This document shows positions 4,084 through 27,743 of a DNA stretch of 32,673 nucleotides, piece after piece. Source of the DNA: a virus; IMG/VR virus record IMGVR_UViG_3300042330_000329, positions 1-32,673 of that record, one strand, 5' to 3'. The notes below the pieces were generated by a model. The model was not told where the DNA came from. It made no database searches and was given only the letters and a program-made list of their open reading frames with translations. A program made the position numbers and the translations under genes. Positions within the stretch are counted from its first letter, which is position 1, and each line of letters opens with the position of its first letter.

Positions 4084-4119
4084 AAGTATCTTTTAACTAT
4101 ACTATTATTACTACTTTTG
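4084..4119 (+). promoter_or_regulatory. Promoter with palindromic upstream site, metallophosphoesterase operon
   Basis: TACTTTTG at 4112-4119 fits the Bacteroidota -7 consensus TAnnTTTG. Just upstream, 4084-4103 carries a 20-bp near-palindrome that matches 13272-13291 at 19 of 20 positions and is related to sites at 17473 and 27724. The start point would fall near 4125, which supports the ATG at 4141. Confidence 0.55.
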
Positions 4120-4140
4120 ATTAAACCAATTCATAAACTT

Positions 4141-5346
4141 ATGAGGATAAGACTTAAACCGCACGAAGCAATAGCTTTAGGATTTGAAGTAATAGCTAAA
4201 GAAAATTATTCAGTAGGATATCCAAAATATCGATTAAACGACAGCCAAATATTACAGTTAGATAAAATTAGAGATTTCCACAATTCTAATTTTAAAGAGA
4301 TTAAAAGAACTTTAAATAAAGACGGTAAAGTAATATCGAAAATCGAAAAGTTAGTCCCTGATACTTTAATCGACATTCCTGACAATCACATAATAAAAAG
4401 GGTTTCAACAAATGTAAGCACCAAACAGCAATGGGTAATTACAGAACCAATAAAGGGAGTAAACGTTGAAAAGGAAATTGATTTCTTATCAATCTTTAAA
4501 GATAAAATTACACCGATAAGTATTCAAAGTAAAAAAGAGTTTACCGATGTATTATTTGATAGAGCCGTTTACACCGATGTTCATATTGGGATGGATGTTA
4601 ACAAAGATGGTTATTCTCTTTACGATGGTGTTTGGAATGAAACAGAAATCTTTAATCGTTTAGAAATATTTGTCAATCAAATTGTAAAAAGCCAAAAGTC
4701 AAACTCTTTATTCTTAAATGATTTAGGCGACTTTATGGATGGCTTTGACGGGTTTACTACACGTGGCGGTCACGCTTTGCCTCAGAATATGGATAATCAA
4801 AAGGCGTTTGATATTGGGTTAAAGTTTAAAATCGCTATGATTGACGAACTATTCAAGTATTACAGTCATATTAAAGTCGTAAACATTTGCAACGATAACC
4901 ACGCTGGAAGTTTTGGCTATATTGTTAATAGTGCTTTTAAGACTTACATAGAGTTGAAATACCCTGATAACATCGAAGTAATTAACCAACGCAAGTTTAT
5001 AGACCATTACATAGTAGATAATCGCTGTTTTATCCTAACTCACGGGAAAGATGACAAGAGCCTTAAATTCGGCTTTAAACCGCAAATCGATGCGCAACAA
5101 ATTGAAAAGATTAAAAACTACATAGACGAGTATAAACTTTATGGTTATGACATCGAATTTAGTAAAGGAGATAGCCACCAATTAATATTTGACTTAACAA
5201 GTTCAACGGCTTTTGAATATCAAAACTTCGGAGCGTTTAGTCCGCCATCGGACTGGGTTAAAACAAATTTTAAGAACACTAAAAGTAGTTTTACTGTTAT
5301 GAACTACTACGAAAAGCAAAAGACAATTAACAACTATATTTTTTAA
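4141..5346 (+). CDS. Calcineurin-like metallophosphoesterase
   Basis: The product has 401 residues from the ATG at 4141. A longer frame to 3946 is rejected because it would read through the repeats and promoter. The five metal-binding blocks of the metallophosphoesterase superfamily appear in order: D146-x-H148 (TDVHIG), G196-D197 (NDLGDFMD), N253-H254 (NDNHAG), H301 (LTHGK) and the final block as G343-D-S-H346 in place of the usual GHxH. It should bind two metal ions and hydrolyse phosphoesters, perhaps nucleic acid; the substrate is unknown. Residues 1-140 are a separate N-terminal region without a recognised motif. It heads the operon that runs to 6964. Confidence 0.75.
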   Translation: MRIRLKPHEAIALGFEVIAKENYSVGYPKYRLNDSQILQLDKIRDFHNSNFKEIKRTLNKDGKVISKIEKLVPDTLIDIPDNHIIKRVSTNVSTKQQWVITEPIKGVNVEKEIDFLSIFKDKITPISIQSKKEFTDVLFDRAVYTDVHIGMDVNKDGYSLYDGVWNETEIFNRLEIFVNQIVKSQKSNSLFLNDLGDFMDGFDGFTTRGGHALPQNMDNQKAFDIGLKFKIAMIDELFKYYSHIKVVNICNDNHAGSFGYIVNSAFKTYIELKYPDNIEVINQRKFIDHYIVDNRCFILTHGKDDKSLKFGFKPQIDAQQIEKIKNYIDEYKLYGYDIEFSKGDSHQLIFDLTSSTAFEYQNFGAFSPPSDWVKTNFKNTKSSFTVMNYYEKQKTINNYIF

Positions 5347-5349
5347 CCT

Positions 5350-5631
5350 ATGTACTTAGACGAAGAGATTTTCAATAGCGAATTTAACGAACGCTTAGCA
5401 AAGGAACGAGCGCAAAATTATATGAGGCTAAAGAATGGCTATAAAGAGCCACAAGACAAACACGTTCAATCGGTCATTAACAAATTTGCTGAACGTTCCG
5501 AAATAGGGTTAAAAAAATACGGCACTACTTTAGAACGTAACGACTTGAAATTAATTGATTGGTTGACCAATTTACAAGAGGAATTGATGGATGCGACTTT
5601 ATACTGCGAAAAACTTAAAGAAATATTATGA
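5350..5631 (+). CDS. MazG-like / nucleotide pyrophosphohydrolase-like protein
   Basis: The product has 93 residues. The second half has the layout of phage MazG-like all-alpha NTP pyrophosphohydrolase proteins: FAERSEIGLKKYGTTL (about 46-61), DWL at 70-72 and EELMDATLY at 77-85, where the E-E-x-x-D helix normally binds magnesium. Such enzymes hydrolyse nucleoside triphosphates to monophosphates. The protein is short and other acidic metal ligands are not obvious, so activity is uncertain. It starts 3 bases after the metallophosphoesterase stop and overlaps the next gene by 4 bases. Confidence 0.58.
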   Translation: MYLDEEIFNSEFNERLAKERAQNYMRLKNGYKEPQDKHVQSVINKFAERSEIGLKKYGTTLERNDLKLIDWLTNLQEELMDATLYCEKLKEIL

Positions 5632-5855
5632 CACTAAAACAAAATTTTGACGAAGTATTTATTGAAAATTGTTTAAGTGATTACGCAACAGAATGTGAAA
5701 AAATAACAGATGATTTTGCTATTGGATTTGCAGAGTGGTTAGTTTCTAATTGCTATTGTGAAGATGACCATTGGTGGTTAATAAAGGTTAGTGGAGATGT
5801 TATAAAAAGCTCAAAAGAACTATTAGAAATCTATAAAAAAGAAAAAGGATTATGA
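5628..5855 (+). CDS. Hypothetical protein
   Basis: A 75-residue acidic protein without a signal or membrane segment. It has FAEWLVSNC followed by DDHWW and ends in a lysine-rich helix. Its ATG overlaps the upstream stop by 4 bases and its stop overlaps the next start, so it belongs to a coupled operon. Not recognised. Confidence 0.6.
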   Translation: MTLKQNFDEVFIENCLSDYATECEKITDDFAIGFAEWLVSNCYCEDDHWWLIKVSGDVIKSSKELLEIYKKEKGL

Positions 5856-5938
5856 AAAAGTTAATATATACACTATGGTTTTTCTTTATTGTATTTGGAT
5901 GTTTATTCTTAATATCTTTTTTAGCTTTTAAAAATTAA
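5852..5938 (+). CDS. Single-span membrane micropeptide
   Basis: A 28-residue frame beginning MKKLIYTLW, with a hydrophobic core (about residues 5-25) and the end KN. Its ATG overlaps the stop of the previous gene as ATGA, which favours real translation. It could be a lysis or membrane accessory peptide. Function unknown. Confidence 0.5.
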   Translation: MKKLIYTLWFFFIVFGCLFLISFLAFKN

Positions 5939-5955
5939 TATAAATAAAAAGGATT

Positions 5956-6171
5956 ATGACACGAAAAGAAAAAGCAGAGGAATTAGTTTGGCAATATTCA
6001 AGAGCATTACAAATTTGGGATTTAGAAAATAGTTTAATAGCTATAAAATGCGCTCTAATAGCAGTTGATGAGATATTAAACTTAATGATTAAAGAGTTTA
6101 AATGGGATGTAAAACATAATGGTAATATTGAATATTGGAAAGAAGTTAAACAAGAAATTGAAAACCTATGA
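5956..6171 (+). CDS. Hypothetical small helical protein
   Basis: The product has 71 residues. MTRKEKAEELV, CALIAVDEILNL and YWKEVKQEIENL resemble a small helical protein often seen in flavobacterial phages and prophages, whose function I do not know. The start follows AAAAAGGATT, an A-rich leader. The stop overlaps the following ATG as ATGA. Confidence 0.65.
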   Translation: MTRKEKAEELVWQYSRALQIWDLENSLIAIKCALIAVDEILNLMIKEFKWDVKHNGNIEYWKEVKQEIENL

Positions 6172-6341
6172 TGACAACCGAAGCAAAATTAGAAGAGATA
6201 AAAAGAAAAATGAAACGGCAACTTGAAAAAGGTCAAAACTGCGAAAAGACAAACGACATTTATCGACAATTACTAAAAGATAGTAAGTATTACGAAAACC
6301 GATTTAAACCAAAAGGATATGGCAGATATAACAATGTGTAA
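6168..6341 (+). CDS. Hypothetical small basic protein
   Basis: A 57-residue frame starting at tandem ATG codons (6168 and 6171), the first overlapping the previous stop. It is helical and lysine-rich, with YRQLLKDSKYYENRFKPKG near the C-terminus. It overlaps the next gene by 23 bases. It closes what would otherwise be a 150-base gap in a tightly packed operon. Confidence 0.55.
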   Translation: MMTTEAKLEEIKRKMKRQLEKGQNCEKTNDIYRQLLKDSKYYENRFKPKGYGRYNNV

Positions 6342-6510
6342 GGGCGAATATTGCGAGTTAAGAGAAACTTGCAAACGATATACATCACAACCAAGTGAAT
6401 ATAGACAAGCGTATTTTAGTAAGCAACCAAACGTAGATAGTTACTATTGTGATATGTATTGGGGTTTAGACAATAAAACAATTAAAGAACATTTAAAAGA
6501 TGAAAAATAA
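6319..6510 (+). CDS. Small cysteine-containing protein, possibly zinc-binding
   Basis: The product has 63 residues, with Cys at positions 7, 12, 18 and 44 (MCKGEYCELRETC, then YYCDMYW) and the conserved-looking RYTSQPSEYRQAYF between them. This resembles a small protein common in Bacteroidota phages. Four cysteines could bind one zinc ion, which is inference. It overlaps the spanin-like gene by 11 bases. Confidence 0.6.
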   Translation: MADITMCKGEYCELRETCKRYTSQPSEYRQAYFSKQPNVDSYYCDMYWGLDNKTIKEHLKDEK

Positions 6511-6964
6511 AGTTATAATCTTGTCACTAATTTTGTCAATATTTGCGACAAGTTGCTCAACCCGAAAAGTAAATAAAACCGAAGTAAAAGAAACAACCGA
6601 AGTAAAGGCAATCGATACGACAAAAACCGTTACCAATACTCAAAAGTTTGAAAGGTCAGTCGATACTTCAACAGTAAGCGAGTTAGAAATAGTACCGATT
6701 GATATTACTAAGCCAATGATTGTAAATGGCAAAAGTTACACAAACGCTATTTTAAAGCGTAAAGTAACCAAAGTTAATAAAGTAGTCGAGTTAACAGAGA
6801 AAGTTGCTCAAATCAAACAAAATGGCGTAAATAAGGCTATTAAGACGGAAAGAGCCATCAAAGAAAAACAAACCGAGCGAGAAAGTGGGTTTAGTTGGTG
6901 GTGGTTACTACTCCTAATTCCGATTTATGTGATTTATAGAGAATTTAAAAACCCACTTAGTTAG
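6500..6964 (+). CDS. Putative unimolecular spanin (lipoprotein with C-terminal membrane span)
   Basis: The product has 154 residues. An N-terminal lipoprotein signal (MKNKVIILSLILSIFATSC) places the lipid-bearing Cys at position 19. A Thr/Lys/Val-rich periplasmic stretch follows (20-128), then a strong hydrophobic segment at about 132-147 (WWWLLLLIPIYVIY) and a short charged tail. An outer-membrane lipid anchor plus a C-terminal inner-membrane span is the topology of u-spanins such as T1 gp11, which fuse the two membranes at lysis. The lipobox has Ala at -3, acceptable but not ideal. It is 2.6 kb from the endolysin but last in the rightward block. An o-spanin partner for the 3015 gene is the alternative. 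Confidence 0.58.
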   Translation: MKNKVIILSLILSIFATSCSTRKVNKTEVKETTEVKAIDTTKTVTNTQKFERSVDTSTVSELEIVPIDITKPMIVNGKSYTNAILKRKVTKVNKVVELTEKVAQIKQNGVNKAIKTERAIKEKQTERESGFSWWWLLLLIPIYVIYREFKNPLS

Positions 6965-6979
6965 TGGGTTTCTTTTTTA
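6949..6979. terminator. Bidirectional intrinsic terminator
   Basis: AAACCCACT (6949-6957) pairs perfectly with AGTGGGTTT (6963-6971) around a 5-base loop. A T-run follows on the plus strand (CTTTTTT) and an A-run precedes (giving T's on the minus strand). It sits exactly where the rightward and leftward operons converge. Confidence 0.85.
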
Positions 6980-7066
6980 TTCATTTTTTGATATTAAGTA
7001 ATACCACAACCAAATTACTTTCGGTCTTATAAACTCGTAGGCTAACCATATAAGTAAGTATTTCAT
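6977..7066 (-). CDS. Small membrane-associated peptide
   Basis: A 29-residue frame beginning MKYLLIWLAYEF, rich in Trp, Leu and Tyr. Its start overlaps the stop of the upstream gene as ATGA and its stop lies in the terminator. It would be the last gene of the long leftward operon. Function unknown. Confidence 0.45.
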   Translation of the reverse strand: MKYLLIWLAYEFIRPKVIWLWYYLISKNE

Positions 7067-7257
7067 AATTTAAGTAGGTTTATTTTATTAAATTTATCTC
7101 TCATTACAATATATCCAAGTGCTTCGTAAAGTTTTAGATAACGGTAAACCGTTCTATTACTTACACTCAAATACCTTTCTATTGTTTGTATATTTCTCGG
7201 CTTGTCCTGAAGGTACTCCATAAGCTTTATGCACCTATACATTTTGTGTTGGTTCAT
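7063..7257 (-). CDS. Small HTH DNA-binding protein
   Basis: The product has 64 residues, almost all a helix-turn-helix of the winged type. NIQTIERYLSVSNRTVYRYL (about 22-41) gives the turn and recognition helix, and LGYIVMRDKF follows as a wing-like strand pair. An alternative Met at residue 6 is possible. It is likely a small transcription regulator made late in the leftward operon. Its target is unknown. Confidence 0.65.
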   Translation of the reverse strand: MNQHKMYRCIKLMEYLQDKPRNIQTIERYLSVSNRTVYRYLKLYEALGYIVMRDKFNKINLLKL

Positions 7258-7259
7258 AA

Positions 7260-7694
7260 TTAATATTCTAATTTTAGTTGAAATGTTCCAGAGTATCCTT
7301 TTTTTCTACATTGTTCAATAAATTTATTTGGTGTTTCTGCATTTAATCTCATATCATCAAATATAAGTTTATCAACATTTTTATAATAAAAAACTAAAAA
7401 TCGCTTATACACATTTCTAAAATAAAATGTTATATATTCTTCAATTTCCTTATCTGTAATTTTTCTTGTAGATATTATTTCCCAATTATTTTCAACCCCT
7501 GTCCTTCTGCCTAAATTTGGCATTAAATCAAAAACTACTGCAATTTGCTTTTTCATTGCACTTTCTTTATTATAAAAACCATATTTAACTACATAGTTTT
7601 TCTTTTTAATTTGAGACTTTAAAAACTTAATTTCATCAATAGTATATGGTTCTGGTTTATTCCAAAGATTATATTCTTTTTTATATTGATCCAT
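7260..7694 (-). CDS. Hypothetical protein
   Basis: A 144-residue soluble protein, rich in Lys, Tyr and Phe, without a motif I recognise. It has YTIDEIKFLKSQIKKKNYVV near the start and an aromatic core (ITFYFRNVYKRFLVFYYKN, about 88-106). It is followed after 2 bases by the HTH gene and preceded by another unknown. Its base composition is more A/T-rich than the neighbouring helicase gene, as for the next two upstream genes. Confidence 0.6.
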   Translation of the reverse strand: MDQYKKEYNLWNKPEPYTIDEIKFLKSQIKKKNYVVKYGFYNKESAMKKQIAVVFDLMPNLGRRTGVENNWEIISTRKITDKEIEEYITFYFRNVYKRFLVFYYKNVDKLIFDDMRLNAETPNKFIEQCRKKGYSGTFQLKLEY

Positions 7695-7696
7695 AG

Positions 7697-8050
7697 TTAA
7701 TAAAGGATAAATGTTGAGTTATCTAATTCAATAGTAATATTGTTGTCTAAGAAGTCTAAAACAATTCCTTTAAATTCATAGACTTTGCCTGATTCATCCA
7801 GCATCAAAAACTTAATATCATTTTTTATGTTTCTTTTTATTTTTGGTAATAATTGTAAGTCGAAAAGGTTATTTAGTTTATCGGCTAATCTTTTACCATT
7901 TACAGAAGTCTTAAATTCATCAGTAAAAATTTGCTGTTTATCTTTAGCAGTTTTTATACACTCGTCCCAAAAGGAAAATATCTCTTGTTCTTTGTAATTA
8001 AGTTGCACTAAAGTGCTATTGATTTCTGTAATTCTTTCGTGTATATTCAT
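7697..8050 (-). CDS. Hypothetical protein
   Basis: The product has 117 residues with no signal or membrane segment. The first half is helical (NIHERITEINSTLVQLNYKE), and the end looks beta-rich (KVYEFKGIVLDFLDNNITIE). It lies 2 bases from both flanking genes in the leftward operon. Not recognised. Confidence 0.6.
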   Translation of the reverse strand: MNIHERITEINSTLVQLNYKEQEIFSFWDECIKTAKDKQQIFTDEFKTSVNGKRLADKLNNLFDLQLLPKIKRNIKNDIKFLMLDESGKVYEFKGIVLDFLDNNITIELDNSTFILY

Positions 8051-8052
8051 AA

Positions 8053-8250
8053 TTAAAAAAGTGTTAATTGTTTTATTTCTTTATTATCCCTTATTCTAAA
8101 AATATATTCATTTCTTTTGGTAAGCGATTCTTTTAAGGATTCGTTCCAGTACTCAATCGGATAGTTTTTATTTCTGATTTGATGTATATACATTGTAATT
8201 TGCCAATGAATAACATTATAGTAATAGTCTTTTAATGTTTCTGTTTTCAT
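8053..8250 (-). CDS. Hypothetical protein
   Basis: A 65-residue basic, Tyr-rich protein (MKTETLKDYYYNVIHWQITM at the N-terminus). Its ATG overlaps the stop of the upstream gene by 4 bases, which suggests coupled translation. No domain recognised. Confidence 0.6.
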   Translation of the reverse strand: MKTETLKDYYYNVIHWQITMYIHQIRNKNYPIEYWNESLKESLTKRNEYIFRIRDNKEIKQLTLF

Positions 8251-8444
8251 AATAAATAAGGTTCTATTTTAGCATCGACTATGGTTTCAAATTTCTGAGT
8301 GTCAAACCAAAAGATGGTATAAAAATATCCGTTCTCGGTTTTCTCACATCCCGAAAGCCTAAACTCTCGATTGCTTTTACTCTTGAAAGTCCTCACCGTA
8401 GGCGCTCCATACGTGGACTGTAAATCCTTGCTTTTCGATTTCAT
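8247..8444 (-). CDS. Hypothetical protein
   Basis: The product has 65 residues. A basic N-terminus (MKSKSKDL) is followed by what looks like a small beta-rich fold (FRLSGCEKTENGYFYTIFWF). The first 68 bases overlap the end of the VRR-NUC gene in another frame, and no later Met is available, so either the overlap is real or the start is a non-ATG codon further in. Function unknown. Confidence 0.5.
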   Translation of the reverse strand: MKSKSKDLQSTYGAPTVRTFKSKSNREFRLSGCEKTENGYFYTIFWFDTQKFETIVDAKIEPYLL

Positions 8445-8637: not shown

Positions 8638-9850
8638 AATCTCGTTTAAAAATTTCGTTAGTGTAATCTTTCTTTTTGCACACCGAAGCGTAAATCTTTG
8701 CCTCTATCCCACCCTCTGAGAATATCCAATAAACATCGTTTGACTTTCTATCCATTGTTGTAAGTCTATCACGGCTTTGCCAATAGCTAACAGACGAGAA
8801 GTCTATATTGTAATAAACCAAATACTTTGCTTTGGCTAAACTGATTCCTTCACGCCCCGAAACAATTTGCAATGCGATGCTTTTATCGGTAGTGTTAAAC
8901 TCATTTAAGTCGTTGCAAACGCTACTTTTTAAAATTGACTTAATAGCGTTGTATTCCTCAACAAACTTGTAAAAGATTGCTATTTTTTGTCCTTTGAATT
9001 TCTCAGCTATAAACATCGCTTTTGAGTAATCGATTACTTTACTACTGCCATCCTCAAATTTACACGTGCCACTATAAAGCTGGTGCAATTTCTGTTGTAG
9101 TTTTACACTTGTATCGGCTAAAATCGTTTGACCTTCTTTGTTAGTCACCACTAAATCAGTTTTTAACTTCTCGGCTATCTTATGAGTGATAGGGTCTAAA
9201 TCACAATACAATACATTCTCAAAGACTTGAGTTTCAAAACCCGCCTCGACTTGCGTAAAGGTTAGAATGTAATAACGTATCAAATGCCAAAAGTCTTTTT
9301 TACGGGCGTTTGAGTAGTCATTTACTTTGGCATAGCCTAAATGCTTTATCTCGATGTCAACATACTGGTTCGCCCATTTGTAAAAGTTGGCGTATTGCTT
9401 AAAAGGCGAATGATTACTTACCCAAAATTGGTGATACCATTGCGAATGACTTTCTGCCGTTGGGGTTCCTGATAAGAATATAATAGGCAAATCGCCAAAC
9501 ATTTTTTTAAATAACTTAGCCGTTGCGTTTGGTTTTGGGTACGCTCCAAATCGATGGTGTTCGTCGTGTATCACTAAATCAAAATCGCCTTGAACTTTAT
9601 GCATACTTTCATCGTTTGCAATAGTTAATTTAAAACTAAAACCTACATTGTCGTAATCACTTTGCACACTTGAAAACGCTCTGATTTTAGTCAGGAATAA
9701 AACATTTTTAGCACCGTAATTTTCAGCAGTTTGCAAAGCGGTTAATGTTTTACCCGTTCTTACTTCCATCGCTAAGTAAACAATCATTTTACGCTTTAGC
9801 GTTTCTGTTGCATCGTTGGCTAATCTTATTTGGTATTTTCTTAATTCCAT
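8567..9850 (-). CDS. SF2 (SNF2-like) DNA helicase
   Basis: The product has 427 residues with two RecA-like lobes. Motifs: Q-motif-like RKYQ (4-7), Walker A RTGKT (31-35), DEHH (96-99) as the DEAH box, SGTPT (127-131), motif V around SGREGIS (331-337) and motif VI QSRDR (358-362). This is the phage form of SNF2-type ATP-dependent DNA translocases found beside VRR-NUC nucleases. It probably remodels forks or recombination intermediates. The last 71 bases overlap the nuclease gene. It follows the primase-helicase gene after 3 bases. Confidence 0.85.
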   Translation of the reverse strand: MELRKYQIRLANDATETLKRKMIVYLAMEVRTGKTLTALQTAENYGAKNVLFLTKIRAFSSVQSDYDNVGFSFKLTIANDESMHKVQGDFDLVIHDEHHRFGAYPKPNATAKLFKKMFGDLPIIFLSGTPTAESHSQWYHQFWVSNHSPFKQYANFYKWANQYVDIEIKHLGYAKVNDYSNARKKDFWHLIRYYILTFTQVEAGFETQVFENVLYCDLDPITHKIAEKLKTDLVVTNKEGQTILADTSVKLQQKLHQLYSGTCKFEDGSSKVIDYSKAMFIAEKFKGQKIAIFYKFVEEYNAIKSILKSSVCNDLNEFNTTDKSIALQIVSGREGISLAKAKYLVYYNIDFSSVSYWQSRDRLTTMDRKSNDVYWIFSEGGIEAKIYASVCKKKDYTNEIFKRDYGIRKQNPIQNNNTITKRGMALR

Positions 9851-9853
9851 AAC

Positions 9854-12190
9854 TTAAAAATCTACTTCGTTATATTCTGCTAACTCTCCAGTCTTAATTG
9901 TAAACCATTGCATCCCGTTGCTGTTTCCGTTTAAATACTCAACATCGATAAACTTGCAATACTTCTGCACCCAAATATTAAACTTCTTGCGGGTTAAAAA
10001 CTTTTGGAAATCTTTGTACTCATTCACGAAATTGTTAAATGCAAATTGTTTGTCTACTCTTTCGTTTCTTAAACAGTTTTCAGGTTCGTGAATCCACTCG
10101 TAAAACTCCATACAAGTCTCAGCAATAAACTTTCGCATCTTAATATTTTTGGCGTTTTGTTTAACCAATCCGTTGCTTAAAAATTTCTGTAAACAATTAA
10201 CCATATAATTGTCGAACTTTTGAAAGTCAATCAAATCCCAGTCATCAAACAGTTGTCTGCCGAACTCATCCTCTGGAGTTAGTTTACTGCCGTAGTATTG
10301 CGCTATCTCGACTTCAAATCGTCGTCTGTCGTGGCTGTTTCCTTCTCCCTTAATTGCATAGTTAGTAGAGATTATAAGTTTAGGGCTGTCGTGTACATTT
10401 AGTTTAATTGCATCTTTATTTTTACGCTCCAAAGTCAAACCCTCAGTTACCAAACTAAATTTCTCCTCAAATGAAAATCCTTTAGCTACATCGTCAAATA
10501 CTAAAATCTTTGTATCGAGTGATACGGTTTGATAGGCGAATGACTTTTTACCATCGAATAACTTACCATCGATTATACTTGTTTTTCTTATTTGGCTTAC
10601 TCCTTGAACAAATACACCTTTACCAGTTCCGCCTTCAGGGTTTTCGCTGATTACTTCATCATTAAGAATAACGGCTTTGTTGTTGCTTCTATTTTTGTAA
10701 GTTGAAAGCAAATAGCCTAAAACACACTCCACCGCAAAGGGTTCGTTATTTGATATATTGTTAATGAATTTTTGATAATCATTATCAAAGTCCTCAATCT
10801 CTACAAAGTCACGGTCTAATATGTGGTCGTTCCAAATGTAATAGCCGACATCGATAAAGTCTATCAATTTAAAATCGTCTTTGGTAACTTCTAAAACTCC
10901 GTTTTGATAAGGTATGTAAGATTTAAACTTTGTATCCGATAAAATTGATAAGTCAATACTTTCCAACATTAAAAGATACTGCTCACTAAATAAATTTTGA
11001 TACCCAGCGCAATAGTTCCAAACTGTAAACTCTCTTTTTTCCATCAAATAGTCAAGAACAAAATCCTTTATTACTTCGACTGACGTTGTTTTAACTTTAT
11101 TGCTTTGTATAAATACCCAACTCGGTTTTTGACTGTCGTTTGGATAATGCTTTTTAAAGCCGTTACGCTCTAAAAATAACTTATACTTTAAAGGCTCTAT
11201 TTTTACATTTCCTTTTTTATCAATAGTCCAAAAATCGTCGTGGGTTTCTTCTTCCTTTAGTTCGTTGTAAACATCCTCCGCTATGTTATGCTTTTTAATA
11301 ACCTCTTCTTTGCCGTTCTTTAAGTCAATCTTAATGGCTTTAATTTTATTATAGTCCTCAAAAAATTTACTATTGAACTGTCTTAAACGATATGCGCTTT
11401 TAATAGTGGTCTTTGCTTCACGTTCTGAAAAGTCACCGATTATAACGTTATTTAAGATATATCCTTCGGCTGTGCCTTCACTTATACCATATTCACAAAA
11501 AGCACCCGCTAAATCAAATATAAATGCGTTTCTTTCACCCTCTCTAAAGTCTTTGCTCCAGTTGAAAGCCATTATCTTTTCGATAATCTTATCCTCGTCG
11601 CTAATTGGCACTAAAGGGGCTTTCTCTTTTATCTCAAATCCTTCATCTATTATATTGGCTTCAAAAGTGGTTGCATCCCAATTAACATAAATGTTTGGGT
11701 CATAGCTTTCAAAACAAACTCGGTCAACGTTGCAGTTAGATATATCGAAATAATCAAAATCAAATTCCTTTTGAAAAGCCTTAAATATTTTAGGGTGTGT
11801 TTCTTTTGTTGCGGTTGGTATCTTAACTACGCCTTTAATTCCATTTCCTGAGGGCGAAATAAATAGCAATAAAAAATGGGGGTTTTCTTTTAGCAGTCTT
11901 AAGTGTTCAAACATTACATCGTCATTCTCATACTTATCAAAATCCACTACCATCAAACCCGAATGTTTTGTCAAAGATTTTGAGTTACGCTCTGAAAACT
12001 CACCCGCAAATAATATTGAAGGTAATTCAGTTTTAAGGGCGTTTCTCAACTCTTTAGTCTCTGATGTACGGATGCGATTAATTAAGTCCTTAGAAGTACC
12101 TTGTTGTATCCTTTTGATTATTTTTTCAATAGGAACTATAAAGGGAACATCCTGAGATTTAAATAAATCTTTAAAAACTGATACGTTCAT
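9854..12190 (-). CDS. Replicative primase-helicase (BT4734-like N-terminus, SF3/D5-type helicase)
   Basis: The product has 778 residues. Residues about 40-170 resemble the BT4734/VirE-N-type domain common in Bacteroidota (VVDFDKYE at 81-88, SPSGNGIKG at 112-120, NVDRVCFESYDP at 154-165). Residues about 480-680 are an SF3-like AAA+ helicase: Walker A EGGTGKG (519-525), Walker B KILVFDDV (561-568), sensor KLIISTN (604-610) and arginine-finger region HDRRR (620-624). It should load on the origin, unwind and probably prime phage DNA. It is the largest early gene and starts 18 bases from an inverted repeat proposed as the origin. Confidence 0.85.
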   Translation of the reverse strand: MNVSVFKDLFKSQDVPFIVPIEKIIKRIQQGTSKDLINRIRTSETKELRNALKTELPSILFAGEFSERNSKSLTKHSGLMVVDFDKYENDDVMFEHLRLLKENPHFLLLFISPSGNGIKGVVKIPTATKETHPKIFKAFQKEFDFDYFDISNCNVDRVCFESYDPNIYVNWDATTFEANIIDEGFEIKEKAPLVPISDEDKIIEKIMAFNWSKDFREGERNAFIFDLAGAFCEYGISEGTAEGYILNNVIIGDFSEREAKTTIKSAYRLRQFNSKFFEDYNKIKAIKIDLKNGKEEVIKKHNIAEDVYNELKEEETHDDFWTIDKKGNVKIEPLKYKLFLERNGFKKHYPNDSQKPSWVFIQSNKVKTTSVEVIKDFVLDYLMEKREFTVWNYCAGYQNLFSEQYLLMLESIDLSILSDTKFKSYIPYQNGVLEVTKDDFKLIDFIDVGYYIWNDHILDRDFVEIEDFDNDYQKFINNISNNEPFAVECVLGYLLSTYKNRSNNKAVILNDEVISENPEGGTGKGVFVQGVSQIRKTSIIDGKLFDGKKSFAYQTVSLDTKILVFDDVAKGFSFEEKFSLVTEGLTLERKNKDAIKLNVHDSPKLIISTNYAIKGEGNSHDRRRFEVEIAQYYGSKLTPEDEFGRQLFDDWDLIDFQKFDNYMVNCLQKFLSNGLVKQNAKNIKMRKFIAETCMEFYEWIHEPENCLRNERVDKQFAFNNFVNEYKDFQKFLTRKKFNIWVQKYCKFIDVEYLNGNSNGMQWFTIKTGELAEYNEVDF

Positions 12191-12207
12191 AATTTTGTTG
12201 TTTTAAA

Positions 12208-12346: not shown

Positions 12347-13021
12347 TTAGAAATCTAAATCTTCACTCTCTTCAAAAACGTTGACTGATTCCTCTACTAA
12401 AACTGGTTTTAAGTAGCTTTTTAGATAACCTTCTAAAGTATCAAAACAATTATCGGCTAAAATTGCCTCGTCACTTGTTAGGGATTTCTCAAATCCAAAG
12501 TCAGGTGTAAAGAATTTAACAGCTCCTTTTTTACCTTCAATAGCTTTTGATACTATTACCCACTCGTCCGATAAACGGTTTCTAACCTTTTGGGTAAATT
12601 CGCCCCACTTTTGAACTGCTGAGCCTTTTAGTTGTAAGTTGGCTAAAGTGCCATCCTCTAACATTATGTAAATAGACTTTACATAGTGTCCTCCAGCTGA
12701 CTGCACTTTCTCTTTAATGTCTTTATAAAGACCTTTAGCAATTTCATTCCCTTTGAATGGTTTAACAGTCATAGGTTCCTTAGAAATGTACTTAACCTCG
12801 TTTGAGAAAATACCGCTTTCGGTTGCATCGTTCCATCCTTTTATAGTGTGGAGTTCATCCAGTACTAAGAATTTAAAAGGTAATGGTACTTGTACTTTCT
12901 TTTGAGCCTCTTTGTCGTAGTACTCAAAACCTTTGTCGTTTGATTTCCAATCTAAAAACTTTGTTGCTGGGTTAGATTGTGGTTGTGCGAATGCACTTCT
13001 GCGGTTTGATGTTGTTTCCAT
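12347..13021 (-). CDS. Putative single-stranded DNA-binding protein
   Basis: The product has 224 residues. A flexible, polar N-terminus (1-20) precedes a mixed alpha/beta core. The C-terminus is strongly acidic and ends in Phe (EESVNVFEESEDLDF), the hallmark tail by which SSB and T7 gp2.5-type proteins contact replication partners. It is the first large gene upstream of the primase-helicase. I see no clear OB-fold signature by eye, so this rests on the tail, size and context. Confidence 0.5.
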   Translation of the reverse strand: METTSNRRSAFAQPQSNPATKFLDWKSNDKGFEYYDKEAQKKVQVPLPFKFLVLDELHTIKGWNDATESGIFSNEVKYISKEPMTVKPFKGNEIAKGLYKDIKEKVQSAGGHYVKSIYIMLEDGTLANLQLKGSAVQKWGEFTQKVRNRLSDEWVIVSKAIEGKKGAVKFFTPDFGFEKSLTSDEAILADNCFDTLEGYLKSYLKPVLVEESVNVFEESEDLDF

Positions 13022-13142: not shown

Positions 13143-13152
13143 AATAATAGGG

Positions 13153-13207
13153 GTTAAAAAAGCCTATTGATTTGTCGGTATCCACTCCAACTCATTCAAT
13201 AGGCTTT
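13153..13207 (-). terminator. Terminator-like stem, leftward
   Basis: AAAGCCTATTGA (13159-13170) pairs perfectly with TCAATAGGCTTT (13196-13207), a 12-bp stem with a 25-base loop. On the minus strand the stem is followed by GGCTTTTTTAAC. It would stop leftward RNA before the SSB-like gene unless antitermination or attenuation applies. Confidence 0.65.
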
Positions 13208-13252
13208 AGGTTTATAACTAACCTCAAAATCTTATTGTAGGTGGATAATCTA
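13153..13252 (-). ncRNA. Candidate leader or small RNA (about 100 nt)
   Basis: A minus-strand promoter (TATATTTG, 13266-13259) would start RNA near 13252, and a strong stem followed by six T's would end it near 13153. No gene fits in between. It is either a free small RNA or an attenuator leader of the SSB-like/replication genes. This is inferred from promoter and terminator patterns only. Confidence 0.35.
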
Positions 13253-13258
13253 CATCAA

Positions 13259-13293
13259 CAAATATACAAAAAAGTATCTTATAACTATACTTT
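13259..13293 (-). promoter_or_regulatory. Leftward promoter with palindromic site
   Basis: On the minus strand TATATTTG (13266-13259) is a perfect TAnnTTTG -7 element. Four bases upstream lies AAAGTAT-N9-ATACTTT (13293-13271), nearly the same as at 17472-17494 and 4084-4103. It would drive the RNA at 13252-13153 and perhaps the replication genes. Confidence 0.6.
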
Positions 13294-13301: not shown

Positions 13302-13571
13302 CTAAATAAAATTTAACTTACTTTCGAGAATAGTCCAAGTTGTATGAACGTATATAATCTCTGGGATAACATCCTCTTTTCGCTTTGCGTAATCTAACAC
13401 TCGGTCAATGTCAATTCGATTTAGTCTATATTCGAAATTACCATTGTGAGTAATAGGGTATATCTTTAGCTTTTGGCATCGGTAACGCAAATTTTCTTTA
13501 CTGATTCCGTAAACTTTAGAAACTTCTTTTAAGTTGTAAGTCCAAAACTCATTTGGTTTCATTGCTTTCAT
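13302..13571 (-). CDS. MerR/excisionase-like HTH protein
   Basis: The product has 89 residues. TYNLKEVSKVYGISKENLRY (about 11-30) is a MerR/Xis-type helix-turn-helix. A wing-like THNGNFEYRLNRIDIDRVL follows (40-58), and helix D forms the end. Small proteins of this fold act as excisionases or early regulators. It is the last gene of the early leftward group and 2.6 kb from the integrase, so excisionase is possible but unproved. Two in-frame starts exist (MKAM and MKPN). Confidence 0.6.
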   Translation of the reverse strand: MKAMKPNEFWTYNLKEVSKVYGISKENLRYRCQKLKIYPITHNGNFEYRLNRIDIDRVLDYAKRKEDVIPEIIYVHTTWTILESKLNFI

Positions 13572-15183: not shown

Positions 15184-15213
15184 CAAAGATAGTGCAATAT
15201 TTCACTTTACAAA
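15184..15213 (-). promoter_or_regulatory. Leftward early promoter
   Basis: On the minus strand TTTG (15213-15210) and TATCTTTG (15191-15184) are separated by 18 bases, matching the Bacteroidota -33/-7 pattern. The operator-like repeat at 15192-15205 fills the spacer exactly. It would drive the leftward small-gene operon that starts at 15069. Confidence 0.65.
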
Positions 15214-17471: not shown

Positions 17472-17507
17472 AAAGTATAGTTTATAGATACTTTTTTTGT
17501 AGCTTTG
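17472..17507 (+). promoter_or_regulatory. Promoter with palindromic site, sigma/terminase block
   Basis: AAAGTAT-N9-ATACTTT (17472-17494) lies 5 bases before TAGCTTTG (17500-17507), a perfect -7 element. The start would be very close to the ATG at 17512, so the mRNA may be leaderless. The palindrome is nearly identical to the one at 13271-13293 on the other strand. Confidence 0.65.
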
Positions 17508-17511
17508 TTTT

Positions 17512-17730
17512 ATGGAAGTAGCAAAACTATTAATGTACGGCTTAACTGATGAGGATGGATACTTTGTTGACTTCTATTTTGACATTAACCAAGCGCAAGG
17601 AGTTTTCGTAAATGAGGATGGATATATCGGGTTAGTGTTAAGCGGTCAAATATACGAGTTGGAATATAGCCAAAGCTTATTTGATAATATAAAGGCAGTA
17701 CTTAGTTTAAAAACTTTAGGATTTAATTAG
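17512..17730 (+). CDS. Hypothetical protein, first gene of the rightward late block
   Basis: A 72-residue acidic, beta-rich looking protein with a GYFVDFYFDIN segment and repeats of the pattern DEDGY/NEDGYI (about 14 and 38). No domain recognised. It abuts the sigma-factor gene with no gap. Confidence 0.6.
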   Translation: MEVAKLLMYGLTDEDGYFVDFYFDINQAQGVFVNEDGYIGLVLSGQIYELEYSQSLFDNIKAVLSLKTLGFN

Positions 17731-20258: not shown

Positions 20259-20260
20259 AA

Positions 20261-21985: not shown

Positions 21986-23363
21986 GATAACATTTTTAAG
22001 CAATCCAACACCAGTAGTAAATTTGGTAATTACCGTTGCTTACGTTCCATTTTCGGTAACGATACCCGTATTAATCGGAACTACTGTAACAATCGGAGCA
22101 ACCAAAGAAGATACGGCTTCAAACCTTTTTGATTATTATGATACTTTTGCTTTGCCAAGTTGGTTAAGCGGTTTTACAACAATTAGTTTAGCTTCAAATG
22201 TTATTTATTTTGACTTTGACCCTGAGGTTGATGCTAACCTTTCGTTTCCTACTTTGCTTTCAACTCAATCGAGTATTACAATAGAAGAGGTAGAGATTCC
22301 AGCCGTTAGTGATTTTGAAATCGGTTTAGTACGTTCGACATTATCTTTACGAGTTATCCCGAATGTAAACTTTGACACGACTACTTTAGATTTGTATAAT
22401 TGGAGCGGAGATATTGCTAACATACCGAGCGACCCAAGTTATTCATTATCAAAGGCGGTTGTTCAATTAGGGCAAACAACTGTCAACTTTGATGTAAACG
22501 AATTAGCCAAAACGGGATTAACACCTACAATCGCCAACTATACTTTGAGTGGTTTACAGTCAATACCATTTAGTCAAAGTTGTTGGAGTTATTACGATGC
22601 AAAGTGTTACGATGGCGACGATTTAGTTTACAGTATTGACGGTCTTTATCTTTGTCTTTATGGCTATGGGTACTTTCAGGACTTATACAATCCGCAACCA
22701 ACATCAAACGTTTTAATTGACGGCAATAGTCACACCCATTTAAGGGGGTACGATAATAGAATCCACTTCCTAACAAGAGGCTTAACTTCGGTTGATGTAA
22801 ACGAGGTAAGCGTTACGGTAAGCGTTGACACGGACTTTAATTATAATAATGTAGTTTCGATTAACTTAAACGATTATGATGCAACAGACGACCTTATAAC
22901 AGTTAGTTTTTATTATGAAGACGAAACAAGGCAAGTCGTTTTTAGAGTTAAAGAAGAGTGTAAATATGAAGTAGTAAATTGTGTATTTATAAACAAGTAC
23001 GGCTTACCTCAATCGCTATTCTTTACCAAAGCACAAAAGAGAAGCGACGAAATAGAAACCTCAGAGTATAGGGGTTTGATTTCAGACTTTGGAGTTTTCA
23101 ATACTTCAAGTCACACCTATAAAACTTTCAACTCAAACGGTCGAACGAAAGTAAGTTGCAATACTGACTACTTAAACGAAAGCGAAAACGAAACGTTTAG
23201 GCAAATGATGTTAAGCGAGAGTGTTTGGCTTATTGAGGGCGATGTAATTAACCCCGTGAACATCGATAAAAAATCAATCGAATACAAAACAAGTTTAGTT
23301 GACAAGTTAATCCAGTACTCAATCGATTTTAAATATTCATTTGATATAATCAATCAATGCTAA
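21969..23363 (+). CDS. Tail structural protein
   Basis: A 464-residue, beta-rich protein. The C-terminal part holds LNESENETFRQMMLSESVWL, GDVINPVNIDKKS and KTSLVDKLIQYSIDFKYSFD, a signature block in Bacteroidota tail proteins next to the tape measure. Residues 1-115 look like a separate Ig-like domain, Thr/Val rich. No signal peptide is likely despite hydrophobic stretches. Overlaps of 17 bases upstream and 7 bases downstream show one tail operon. Probably distal tail or baseplate. Confidence 0.6.
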   Translation: MAKRVKITFLSNPTPVVNLVITVAYVPFSVTIPVLIGTTVTIGATKEDTASNLFDYYDTFALPSWLSGFTTISLASNVIYFDFDPEVDANLSFPTLLSTQSSITIEEVEIPAVSDFEIGLVRSTLSLRVIPNVNFDTTTLDLYNWSGDIANIPSDPSYSLSKAVVQLGQTTVNFDVNELAKTGLTPTIANYTLSGLQSIPFSQSCWSYYDAKCYDGDDLVYSIDGLYLCLYGYGYFQDLYNPQPTSNVLIDGNSHTHLRGYDNRIHFLTRGLTSVDVNEVSVTVSVDTDFNYNNVVSINLNDYDATDDLITVSFYYEDETRQVVFRVKEECKYEVVNCVFINKYGLPQSLFFTKAQKRSDEIETSEYRGLISDFGVFNTSSHTYKTFNSNGRTKVSCNTDYLNESENETFRQMMLSESVWLIEGDVINPVNIDKKSIEYKTSLVDKLIQYSIDFKYSFDIINQC

Positions 23364-25720
23364 AAGTTTCAATATACGTAGAGGGAAAACAACTCGAACT
23401 ATTCAAAGACGAGCAAATCGAAATCAATTCGACAGTACAAAATATTGCAGATATATCAAAAACGTTTAGCGATTTTAGTCAGTCTTTTACTGTACCTGCA
23501 TCAAATATCAATAACGATATATTCCAACACTATTATAACACCGATATTGACGGCACATTTAACCCAAATATTAGAGTGTTAGGCTATATTGAACTCGGTT
23601 CTTTGCCTTATCGATACGGACTTATCCAGTTAGAGGATGTAAAAATTAAGAATCAAAAGCCTTACGCCTATACGATTAGGTTTTTTAGTTCAACTTTAAG
23701 CCTTTCGGACTTGTTTAAAGAGGATGAGTTAAGCGTTTTAGACCTTTCAGCGTACGACCACGACTTTGACACCTCTATTTTTAACGCTACATTCAACGAA
23801 ACTATAGCGGGGGGCGATGTTTATTACCCTTTAATTACTTCTTTACGTAATTATGTTATTGGTAACGGCACAAATTTAGACATTACACATACCGCAGGAG
23901 CGATTAAATACTTTGAATTAAAGCCTGCGCTTAGATTAAATAGGATTTTCGATGCTATTTCGACACGTTACGGGGTTACATTTAGGCAGGACTTTTTAAA
24001 CAGAGCCGTATTTGATAACCTTTTTATGTGGTTGCATAGAGATGCGGGGCAAATTCAAGCGTTTGGCGATGAAACGAGGGTTAATATTACAAGCGCAGGA
24101 ACGTTAGGCGATATTTCGGTAACGGTAAACACTACAGACGATAGTATAGAATACACCAACACAAGCGCAAACAAATACAAAGTTTTATTTGAAGTAAGAC
24201 CCGAAACGGGTTTTGAGGATGTAACCTATAAAGCACGTATTTACGACAATGGAATCGAGCGCACAATCGGAGAGGGAACTGGCGACCAAACATTTATTTT
24301 TGAGGGCATAGATTCGCAAACATATTTAAACACTTTCACGGTGCAAGCGGTTGGAGATTTCCAATTTACAACACGGATTTTAGTAAGGTTAAAAATAATA
24401 GGTCTTGGAAGTGTAGATAAAGCAACTACAACACCAGTACAAACGCTATCGGGATTTGCTAACATTTCTACTTTAATGCCAAAAATGAAAGTTAGGGATT
24501 TTATAGTTTCAATTATCAAAATGTTTAATTTGGTTTTAGTACCGATTAACTCAACAACGTTCACATTAATTCCTTTAGACGATTGGTATGCGCAAGGCAG
24601 ATTGATAGATATAAGCGACTTTATAGAAACAGACGAGGTAACTGTAAAAAGACCGAAACTATTTAAGCAAATCGATTTTAAACACCAAAACACGGGTCAA
24701 ATATTAGGCGAGCAATTCAGAGAGAATAACGGGGGTATTGGTTACGGAGATTTGCGCTCGACTTACGACATCGACGGTACAGAATTAAAAGTTGAAACCC
24801 AGTTTGAGAATTTAGTCTTTGAGAGATTGACCGATATATCAAACGGTGATTTGACTAATATACAAGTTGGAAAATCAATCGACAAAACGTTAGAGCCTTA
24901 CATCGGAAAGCCTTTTATTTTTTATCGTTGCGGTTATCAGTTTTACGACCCACCAATAAAAGCGCACGACTTTGGAGATATTGATTACACGTGGTTAACA
25001 TCAACGGAAAACGATTTGTTCGTAAGCCAAGTAAGTAACACGGTAAACTACTCAAGCGATGTAAGTACGTTTTTGTATTCAGAAATTACTCGAAACTTAT
25101 TTAGTAATTATTGGAGTGATTATATTTCGGACTTGTACTCTTTAAAGCGTAGGATTTCAAACTATAGTGCCTACTTACCGATTGGGGTTTTGATTAATCT
25201 AAACCTAAACGATAGGATAAAAATAGGCGGTTACGCTTATATTATTAATTCTATGAAAATAAATTTGGTTAGTGGCAAAGTTGACTTCGAGTTATTGAAT
25301 TATATCGGAGTTCCTTTCACTTCGGTAAACGATGTCGTTATGCTTACAGCTGACACAGTTGATTATTTTGCCGATACGACTTACTTAACTGCGGATTTGA
25401 TTTCGTTGTACTCCCCTGCTTATTCGGGCGTGGCAAACGGTATTGAATATAGTAACTTACAAGTTACGCCAAGCGCACAAAATTACGATTGCAAAATAAC
25501 GGCAAACCAAAACTACTTAGCAGTTAAAACCAATACGGGCGACGGTACAAGTTGGATAACGTTAGAGAATGCAACGGGAACGCAAACCAACTACTTAAAA
25601 ATTAAAGTCGATAAATACACCGCAGGGATAACAGATGAAACGTTAAGCCGTTCGATGGATATCGATGTGACAATCGGGGGAGATACATTTACAATAACAG
25701 TAACACAGGGACAACAGTAA
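23357..25720 (+). CDS. Large tail protein with C-terminal BACON-like domain
   Basis: The product has 787 residues. The N-terminal part (KTFSDFSQSFTVPASNINND, about 35-54) is the recognisable core of a tail protein widespread in Bacteroidota siphoviruses. The middle is beta-rich (about 230-620). The final 100 residues (NGIEYSNLQVTPSAQNYDCK through GGDTFTITVTQ) resemble a BACON domain, with its closing strand ending in VTQ; such domains may bind glycans, and are also seen in crAss-like phage tails. It probably forms the distal tail and contacts the cell surface. Confidence 0.65.
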   Translation: MLKVSIYVEGKQLELFKDEQIEINSTVQNIADISKTFSDFSQSFTVPASNINNDIFQHYYNTDIDGTFNPNIRVLGYIELGSLPYRYGLIQLEDVKIKNQKPYAYTIRFFSSTLSLSDLFKEDELSVLDLSAYDHDFDTSIFNATFNETIAGGDVYYPLITSLRNYVIGNGTNLDITHTAGAIKYFELKPALRLNRIFDAISTRYGVTFRQDFLNRAVFDNLFMWLHRDAGQIQAFGDETRVNITSAGTLGDISVTVNTTDDSIEYTNTSANKYKVLFEVRPETGFEDVTYKARIYDNGIERTIGEGTGDQTFIFEGIDSQTYLNTFTVQAVGDFQFTTRILVRLKIIGLGSVDKATTTPVQTLSGFANISTLMPKMKVRDFIVSIIKMFNLVLVPINSTTFTLIPLDDWYAQGRLIDISDFIETDEVTVKRPKLFKQIDFKHQNTGQILGEQFRENNGGIGYGDLRSTYDIDGTELKVETQFENLVFERLTDISNGDLTNIQVGKSIDKTLEPYIGKPFIFYRCGYQFYDPPIKAHDFGDIDYTWLTSTENDLFVSQVSNTVNYSSDVSTFLYSEITRNLFSNYWSDYISDLYSLKRRISNYSAYLPIGVLINLNLNDRIKIGGYAYIINSMKINLVSGKVDFELLNYIGVPFTSVNDVVMLTADTVDYFADTTYLTADLISLYSPAYSGVANGIEYSNLQVTPSAQNYDCKITANQNYLAVKTNTGDGTSWITLENATGTQTNYLKIKVDKYTAGITDETLSRSMDIDVTIGGDTFTITVTQGQQ

Positions 25721-25866
25721 TGATAACACAAATAATAGAACTATTGCAGTCAATGGAATTTAAAAAAGGAACGGACAATATCGAGTTTGCCAAAGGTGCT
25801 TATCGTTATCCACGTTCAATAAAAGAAACATTTAAAATAAGTAAAAGATGGCTATCAAGAAAATAA
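25720..25866 (+). CDS. Small hypothetical protein in the tail operon
   Basis: A 48-residue basic protein (MITQIIELLQSMEFKKGTDN start; ending KISKRWLSRK). Its ATG overlaps the previous stop as TAATG and its end overlaps the tape-measure start by 19 bases. It fills the gap between the two large tail genes. Function unknown. Confidence 0.5.
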   Translation: MITQIIELLQSMEFKKGTDNIEFAKGAYRYPRSIKETFKISKRWLSRK

Positions 25867-27722
25867 TTGAAATCGATGTTGAAGCGGTGCAAGCGATGGG
25901 CGGACTTGATGCTCTTCAAAACTCACTCGCAGAAACGGAAAAAAGTAGCGTTTCATTAAAGGCAGAATTAAGAAAGCTGAAAGAACAATTAGCGCAACTT
26001 CCTGAGGGTTCTGAGGAGTATAATAAAATTGCACAAAAAGCGGGAGAGGTTAGCGATAAGATAGGCGATATTAACACCCGAATCAAAAATTTAGGTAGCG
26101 ATACAAAAAACATCGATGCAGTCGTACAAGGTACGCAAGCCTTATCGGGAGCGTTTTCGGTCGCCACTTCCGCAAGTGCTTTATTGGGCGAAGAGAATAA
26201 AGACTTGCAGGAAACAATGTTAAAAGTCGAAAGCGCAATCGGTTTGACTGTAGGTATTCAATCAATCGCAAACGCTTTGCAAGCCGAAAGTGCTTTAGCT
26301 ATCGGACTGTCAACGGTTGCTACTAAAATACAAACGGGTGCGCAAATAGTTTACGCTACTGTAGTAGGTACAACAACTGGAGCGTTAAAAGCTTTAAGGG
26401 TTGCGTTATTGTCTACGGGGGTTGGTGCGCTTGTGGTGGCTTTGGGTTTCTTAGTGGCTAAAATGAGCGAAAGCACAGAGGCAACCGAAGACCAAGAGAA
26501 AGCCTTAGCAGATTTAACAGAAACCCAAAAACGATTTAACGAAAGTTTAAAGGCTGAAATTGACGGTATTCAAAACTCTACACAATTAAGATTATTAAGA
26601 GCAAAGATTGCAGGTAAAAGCGAAAAAGATTTAAGGGAAATTGAAAAAGAGGGCGAAGCGGAAAGAGCCAGCTCATTTAGAAATGAAATAACCCGAATTG
26701 ATAAACTTTTACAAAATAGAAAATTATCGGATGCCGAGTTTAAACTATTAACAGAGCAAAGAAATAAATTAGCCGATGAATCTTTAAAATTTGCGCAAGA
26801 CAGAGACATTAAACAATTAGAGTTTGAAGCTGATTTAGCCGACAAAAGAAGAGATGCGCAAAGCAAAGCAAGAGATGAAGCAAATGCAGAGGCTAAAAAA
26901 TTAGCAGACGAAAGAAAGGCGATAGAGAAAAAAGAACTCGAAGAAAAAATAGCGTTTGAAAATGCGAAAGGGCGTTCGGCAGAGCAGGCTTTCGATGCTT
27001 TGTTAAAAGTTGAAGCCGATGCAAAGGAAAAAAATAGACTTGCGGGTCTTACCGAGTTAGAACAAACGCAACAAAAATACGATGCTTTAATTGAGCAGGC
27101 GAGATTGGCAAACGTTTCAACTGTAGAGTTAGAAATTGAAAAAGCCAACGCTGTAAATGAAATCAATTTAGCGCAACAGAAAATCGAAGAGGATGGCAGA
27201 CTTGCACAGAAAGAAGCCGACGAAAAAGCCTTAGCCGATAAGAAAATATTAAAAGAGCAGGAGTTAGCATTAGCGGGCGAAACATTTGGTAAGGTCGCTA
27301 TGTTATTAGGTAAAAACAGTAAGATAGGAAAAGCGTTTGCAGTAGGTCAAGCGTTAATAAATACCTATCAGGGTATAACTGCCGAGTTAGCGACTAAACC
27401 CGTTACACCTTACGAGATAGGTTTAAAGGTTGCGAACATAGCATTTGTAGCATCAACGGGTTTCAAAGCGGTTAAGAATATCTTATCAACTAACCCGATG
27501 TCAAGCGGTGGCGGTGGTTCAGCTTCAAGCGGTGGTGCAAGCGGTGGTGGCGGAAGTAGCGCACCACAATTCAATTTAGTGGGTCAGTCATCAACAAACC
27601 AATTAACGACAACAATCGCAGGACAACAAAATAGACCAGTTCAAACATTCGTTGTCGGTAGTCAAGTTACAAGTCAACAAGCATTAGACCGTAACGCAGT
27701 AGCAAATTCGGTGTTTGGGTAA
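25848..27722 (+). CDS. Tail tape measure protein
   Basis: The product has 624 residues. A long charged helical part with coiled-coil heptads (about 25-85 and 215-470) flanks hydrophobic segments (about 170-205, VALLSTGVGALVVALGFLVA). KAFAVGQALINTYQGITAEL near 500 is a family feature, and the C-terminus is Gly/Ser-rich (about 550-572), then Gln/Thr-rich. Tape measures set tail length; at 1.5 angstrom per residue this gives about 90 nm, supporting a siphovirus. Confidence 0.85.
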   Translation: MAIKKIIEIDVEAVQAMGGLDALQNSLAETEKSSVSLKAELRKLKEQLAQLPEGSEEYNKIAQKAGEVSDKIGDINTRIKNLGSDTKNIDAVVQGTQALSGAFSVATSASALLGEENKDLQETMLKVESAIGLTVGIQSIANALQAESALAIGLSTVATKIQTGAQIVYATVVGTTTGALKALRVALLSTGVGALVVALGFLVAKMSESTEATEDQEKALADLTETQKRFNESLKAEIDGIQNSTQLRLLRAKIAGKSEKDLREIEKEGEAERASSFRNEITRIDKLLQNRKLSDAEFKLLTEQRNKLADESLKFAQDRDIKQLEFEADLADKRRDAQSKARDEANAEAKKLADERKAIEKKELEEKIAFENAKGRSAEQAFDALLKVEADAKEKNRLAGLTELEQTQQKYDALIEQARLANVSTVELEIEKANAVNEINLAQQKIEEDGRLAQKEADEKALADKKILKEQELALAGETFGKVAMLLGKNSKIGKAFAVGQALINTYQGITAELATKPVTPYEIGLKVANIAFVASTGFKAVKNILSTNPMSSGGGGSASSGGASGGGGSSAPQFNLVGQSSTNQLTTTIAGQQNRPVQTFVVGSQVTSQQALDRNAVANSVFG

Positions 27723-27723
27723 A

Positions 27724-27743
27724 AAGTATAGTTTAACTATATT
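27724..27743 (+). promoter_or_regulatory. Palindromic site before the capsid block
   Basis: AAGTATAGTTTAACTATATT is 17 of 20 identical to 4084-4103 and shares its first 12 bases with 17473-17484. Its core TATAGTTTAACTATA is a perfect palindrome around one base. TATATTTA (27739-27746) resembles a -7 element. Confidence 0.5.

Follow-up and report, generated by a model that had tools for sequence, protein, structure and literature searches.

The window analysed here is a whole stretch of 32,673 nucleotides (32.7 kb, 35% GC; IMG/VR virus record IMGVR_UViG_3300042330_000329, positions 1 to 32,673) from a temperate-looking phage of flavobacterial type. One 21-bp palindrome, AAGTATnGTTnnnnnATACTT, is repeated in it four times, at the following places:

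4084 to 4104, no strand: site 1, AAGTATCTTTTAACTATACTA, at the head of a phosphoesterase-like accessory block.
13272 to 13292, no strand: site 2, AAGTATCTTATAACTATACTT, flanked by the replication block and gene 13302, both leftward.
17473 to 17493, no strand: site 3, AAGTATAGTTTATAGATACTT, between the integrase gene and the 17512/sigma/terminase block.
27724 to 27744, no strand: site 4, AAGTATAGTTTAACTATATTT, 3' of the stop of the tape-measure gene and 5' of the protease/capsid block.

The original prediction had described four near-palindromic 20-bp sites. All four sequences are present where it placed them and with the mutual identities it gave, and the repeat is real, but the unit is 21 bp long. 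With at most one mismatch, the arms AAGTAT-N9-ATACTT occur 4 times in the window against 0.3 expected from dinucleotide shuffles; the pattern first proposed, at up to 3 mismatches, occurs 14 times against 13.9 expected and is not above chance. When the window was scanned with a matrix made from its own sites and their relatives, the four sites scored 24–26 bits and the runner-up 9; because of the origin of the matrix, these scores show a gap and do not constitute an independent test. Since the runner-up reaches only 9 bits, no comparable matches exist within genes. Site 1 lies within a GTG-started open reading frame (ORF; 3946–5346), but ATG 4141, the start position of the homologue in the related phage G021, is very probably the true start of this gene, and site 1 is therefore taken as intergenic.

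The -7 box of flavobacterial sigma-A promoters is TAnnTTTG, at -12 to -5 (PMC9723704). Such boxes stand beside three of the sites:

4112 to 4119, plus strand: -7 box TACTTTTG, 7 nucleotides (nt) past site 1; predicted start near 4124, gene ATG at 4141.
13259 to 13266, minus strand: -7 box TATATTTG, 5 nt past site 2 on that strand; predicted start near 13254.
17500 to 17507, plus strand: -7 box TAGCTTTG (TAAGTTTG in the relative G001), 6 nt past site 3.

The start at site 1 was derived from the published position of the box (PMC9723704). By the same position, the predicted start at site 3 coincides with ATG 17512, and a leaderless mRNA is therefore predicted there. The leaderless prediction (window 17500–17514) recurs in G001, G002, G003 and L148 (5526–5540); the gene behind site 3 in L148 is non-homologous, yet its predicted start likewise falls on the ATG. 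A -7 element, originally considered likely beside every site, is thus found at sites 1 and 3 (plus strand) and 2 (minus strand), but site 4 has no convincing box: no clear TAnnTTTG lies downstream of it, the best candidate being AATAATTG at 27761–27768, 16 nt after the palindrome, with 4 of the 6 fixed bases.

A query with the terminase region returned, among phage records, only the Nonlabens phages P12024L and P12024S, at about 70% nucleotide identity over terminase. Conservation of the sites was traced in related sequences designated G and L. G003 (IMGVR_UViG_3300020043_004190), a circularly permuted relative, has all four sites at homologous places (site 1 at 9806, site 2 at 17595, and a site 4 identical to that of the window), together with two additional palindromes next to site 1, at 9331 and 9719. 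G002 (IMGVR_UViG_3300008266_000532) keeps sites 1 (at 2678), 2 and 3, with the immunity/integrase region swapped for other genes; its site 2, at 10252, is inverted and lies 10 bp further from the same -7 box. Site 3 is kept in G001, G002, G003 and the fragment L148, where it precedes an unrelated late module, and in G021 with AAGTAG arms. AAGTAG…CTACTT arms are found in G021, G022, G028, G035 and L320, at least two such sites being present in each of G021 and G035, and the arm type is consistent within each genome. In the G025–G034 group, AAGTATTGTTATTCAATACTT or a near variant, written AAGTATTG..CAATACTT, directly follows the lysozyme stop, which is the place of site 1. At the site-4 junction of G022 the palindrome is absent, leaving a clean gap of about 20 bp. 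Conservation, which the original prediction had left to comparison with relatives, is evident: the sites are syntenic in G003, and promoter-linked copies recur in more than 10 further phages. The exact motif matches 70 stretches in the whole viral collection; those that have a phased -7 box come from phages closely related to that of the window, and the others look like chance matches. HNH-endonuclease-like genes within the replication block are also each preceded by their own AAGTAG-type palindrome and -7 box (G035, 3863 and 5733; G022, 5236; oriented coordinates).

The distance between palindrome and -7 box was assessed by an unbiased scan in which every 21-mer having perfect inverted arms of 6 bp and lying 0–30 nt ahead of TAnnTTTG was collected from all 33 phage sequences. 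Most often the spacing is 5–7 nt (40 of 71), the AAGTA family and a second one, TATTTAGA…TAAATA, forming the peak together. Among exact-arm AAGTA palindromes, 26 of 33 have TAnnTTTG at 5–7 or 15–16 nt on one side, versus 1.1% of random positions; these counts are not independent, because many of the palindromes are homologous between phages, and by distinct sequence 11 of 17 have the phased box. Promoter-linked palindromes are spaced 5–7 nt from the box, or one helical turn more (15–16 nt), and occur in both orientations. The dyad symmetry is kept at non-homologous places and across relatives, the arms being conserved while the centre drifts.

In ordinary promoters of these phages, TTG is most frequent 19 nt before the -7 box; the -33 position is therefore covered by the left arm of the palindrome at spacings of 5–7 and by the right arm at 15–16. 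Sites 1–3 have the -7 box of a sigma-A promoter, but the -33 TTG expected about 19 nt upstream is not there: no TTG is found 17–22 nt before the box, either at these sites or at the promoters with palindromes in G003, G002, G021, G022 and G035. The G025 type has a TTG inside the left arm, exactly 19 nt from the -7 box. At the site-3 position of G005 there is no palindrome, and the promoter has a canonical -33 box (TTTTG-N20-TACTTTTG).

At the late structural operons of G024, G027, G029, G030, G033 and G034, palindromes of the second family, TATTTAGAATnATTCTAAATA-like in sequence, stand 6–7 nt before TAnnTTTG. With up to 3 mismatches this family has 33 matches in the 33 phage sequences, versus 4 for a mirrored control. 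One copy lies at window 4057–4075 (3 mismatches), just upstream of site 1, and copies at G003 9778 and G002 2650 have 1 mismatch each. The family resembles the Fur box of Riemerella (PMC5609570). The Flavobacteriales Fur box is ATTTAGAATTATTCTAAAT, shown in Riemerella by electrophoretic mobility shift assay (PMC5609570); it is a palindrome of similar length to the AAGTAT sites, and the Fur-like box of the related phages lies at the same distance from the -7 box, but its sequence differs from that of the AAGTAT sites, which give no match to it.

The remaining features of interest are a gene beside site 2 and the promoter of its operon:

13302 to 13571, minus strand: candidate binder of 89 amino acids, a putative MerR-like winged helix-turn-helix (HTH) protein with a C-terminal ESKLN tail, considered by family, by model and PDB matches, and by distribution.
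15184 to 15191, minus strand: -7 box TATCTTTG, belonging to the early leftward promoter, which is of the canonical -33/-7 kind and has TTTTG 18 nt ahead of the box.

Gene 13302 ends the early leftward operon and lies 9 bp from site 2. In the early leftward promoters TTG precedes the -7 box by 18 nt in the window and by 19 nt in G003, G021, G022 and G035. Against HTH_17, protein 13302 itself falls short of the cut-off (E = 0.04), and a homologue of 38% identity reaches 8e-6. The model of 13302 has an apparently MerR-like winged HTH core (predicted local distance difference test 85–89) and a poor C-terminal part; its PDB matches are mostly MerR-like, every one with E ≥ 0.02. Profile comparison shows the 13302 and G025 types to be homologous (92%, E = 5e-7). 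No relatives of 13302 were found in phage records and none of its family in bacterial genomes, where a helicase query returned two matches only, both metagenome-assembled genomes without the motif.

The ESK[LIM]N tail is common to small HTH proteins with differing N-terminal parts (window 13302–13571; G025, 12666–12908; G035, 9250–9450; G005, 5–271; G040, 23214–23420), and could be a docking peptide. Genes for tailed HTH proteins are present in 15 of 16 site-bearing phages and in 5 of 14 others. Among the four HTH proteins originally proposed as binders, 13302 survives, while 7063, 14830 and 15813 are rejected by their distribution: 7063 is undetected in the site-bearing G021 and G022 and present in at least seven phages without sites, and for 14830 and 15813 only G003 and fragment L148 gave matches. 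Each of 17731, 7063, 14830, 15263 and 15813 is undetected in some site-bearing phages. An unbiased search for gene content associated with the sites singled out no unique gene.

From the observed sites, their conservation, their -7 phasing without a -33 box, the gene order and the canonical form of the early promoter, we infer that a dimeric phage-encoded protein very probably binds the palindromes. Once bound, it would probably serve as an activator and not as a repressor, and there is a slight preference for 13302 or its relatives as the binder. The composite of these parts, in which the palindromes are operators of one dimeric phage-encoded DNA-binding protein and 13302 activates the replication, late and accessory blocks, is put forward tentatively. 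What favours activation is that a lytic cycle requires these blocks at a later stage, that the early promoter has the canonical form, and that helical phase is preserved by the one-turn shift. Host RNA polymerase with sigma-A would first transcribe the leftward early operon, of which 13302 is the last gene, from its canonical -33/-7 promoter. The 13302 protein would then bind the 21-bp palindromes, centred at about -28 to -30 (-38/-39 in some relatives), and replace the -33 contact at promoters that retain the sigma-A -7 box and show no -33 box. In this way site 2 would serve to activate the replication block, site 3 the late sigma/terminase block and site 1 the accessory block after lysozyme, and site 4 possibly the capsid block as well. 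The single regulator of all four blocks in the original prediction is upheld in part: a trans-acting factor with a shared operator at block promoters fits the synteny, the conserved arms with drifting centre, the fixed -7 phasing and the arm type within genomes, but site 4 is not supported as a promoter.

Several observations weigh against this activation by 13302. The lysozyme gene, a neighbour of site 1, equals or surpasses the tailed HTH genes in its association with the sites (15 of 16 site-bearing phages versus 3 of 14 others), and because of this and of the relatedness of the phages the tailed-HTH association is weak evidence. L185 (AAGTAT) and L189 (AAGTAG) have different arms and nearly the same HTH, so that the arm change T6 to G is not upheld as a read-out of the tailed HTH. 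G029 has a site and no tailed HTH that could be found, and G005, G023, G024, G040 and G042 have the tail and no such palindrome that could be found. The phased -7 box is absent at site 4 and at the extra G003 copies at 9331 and 9719. Ordinary promoters also often have no -33 box (TTG at 17–21 nt in 27 of 126), and since most ordinary -7 boxes here have no clear TTG, its absence at the palindromes is no proof of activation. Finally, the geometry is also that of the Fur-like boxes of relatives, and Fur usually acts as a repressor. As regards G029 (IMGVR_UViG_3300032324_000422), an ORF of 595 amino acids, UvrA-like, at 10299–12086 (oriented), occupies the place that the tailed HTH gene and its neighbour have in relatives, and may represent a chimeric contig or an insertion.

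The same operators might instead be occupied by a phage repressor that blocks RNA polymerase at -33, either a Cro-like timing repressor or an immunity remnant. An operator on -33 is a usual location for a repressor; the G025-type promoter looks complete unaided, because of its TTG at exactly 19 nt, and an XRE protein (15263) is encoded in the window and G003. Such a repressor is nevertheless rather unlikely: sites with perfect arms are kept where integrase and XRE genes are missing, the lytic cycle depends on the blocks concerned, and the 10-bp shift (G002 site 2; G035 9230) keeps a helical phase that simple blocking does not require. A role as lysogeny operators was set aside, since G002, G021, G022 and G035 keep sites without the integrase and XRE genes of the window; for the same reason prophage induction is not needed.

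Binding by a host regulator, which would let a host signal control the phage blocks, is suggested by the second palindrome family of the relatives, with its same geometry and its likeness to the Riemerella Fur box. It is improbable, however, as 60 Flavobacteriaceae genomes contain about one AAGTAT palindrome per genome, near the mirrored control; no host regulon was seen in these genomes, a sample that may not include the genus of the true host and could miss a genus-specific regulator.

Weak transcription terminators between blocks are a very improbable explanation. Some copies do precede T runs and sit between same-direction genes, and hairpins are possible at site 4 (-5.5 kcal/mol) and in the G025 type (-7 kcal/mol), but the folding of sites 1–3 (-0.8 to -3.5 kcal/mol) does not surpass that of shuffles, a distinct GC-rich hairpin already lies between the integrase gene and site 3, and terminators need neither a common sequence nor a fixed distance to a -7 box. 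Intrinsic terminators were rejected, as the RNA of sites 1–3 folds like shuffles and site 4 folds without a T run. Recognition of the sites as promoter elements by the phage sigma-like protein 17731, the other regulator originally proposed, is hardly credible: it matches phage sigma-factor families and is encoded in the block behind site 3, but the -7 box is of the host sigma-A type, the palindrome occurs in both orientations, and the protein is undetected in the site-bearing G035 and G025–G034 and present in G005 and G020, where no sites were found.

Activation by 13302 may be compared with known systems. In the sigma appropriation of phage T4, the activator MotA has a site near -30 that takes the place of the -35 element, the host -10 element is retained, and an early product turns on later genes. 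The likeness to T4 middle promoters would be one of geometry, with a site near -30 in place of a -35-type element and the host -7 box retained; unlike the short asymmetric box of T4, the site here is a 21-bp palindrome, and the promoter is of the flavobacterial -33/-7 kind with a MerR-like candidate protein. With the MerR activators among the PDB matches (BmrR, GlnR/TnrA), the candidate would share the winged-helix core, and the palindrome here is similar in length to their 21–22 bp palindromic operators and likewise near the core promoter. One defining feature of classical MerR promoters fails, however, because their operator lies between intact -35 and -10 boxes, whereas the palindrome of the window lies on -33; moreover, 13302 has no ligand domain and ends in the ESKLN tail. 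The C1 operators of phage P1 are dispersed sites of a phage repressor. Stoperators of mycobacteriophages are likewise described as dispersed repressor sites (PMC9283540). In both, as presumably here, one phage protein is served by many copies of one site across the genome; those sites maintain immunity, whereas the present ones persist without integrase and repressor genes, and stoperators are asymmetric.

Between site 2 and gene 12347, the minus strand of window 13150–13256 forms a structured leader RNA of two hairpins, one GTAG…CTAC and the other terminator-like and accompanied by a T run, both showing changes on both sides in relatives. Their loops, whose pairing was read by eye, are complementary (TATCCAC/GTGGATA), and since this complement changes on both sides in G022 (CATCCAC/GTGGATG) and G021 (CTTCCAC/GTGGAAG), the leader sequence suggests a kissing-loop attenuator.

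The hosts of flavobacterial phages use unusual -7/-33 promoters, and no account was found in the open-access papers searched of how these phages time their gene blocks, nor of such a system. The outcome is a concrete, testable candidate cascade that leads from a canonical early promoter through a single candidate activator to specified target promoters whose starts are predicted. It is doubtful, but conceivable, that the ESKxN-tailed MerR-like phage proteins form a family of activators in which the HTH sits on the -33 palindrome and the tail contacts host RNA polymerase; if so, the family would use different palindromes in different phages (AAGTAT, AAGTAG, perhaps TATTTAGA) in the same geometry. 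The geometry rule, a palindrome 5–7 or 15–16 nt before TAnnTTTG, found in related phages a second operator family that had not been sought, and can therefore aid regulon annotation in other Bacteroidota phages.

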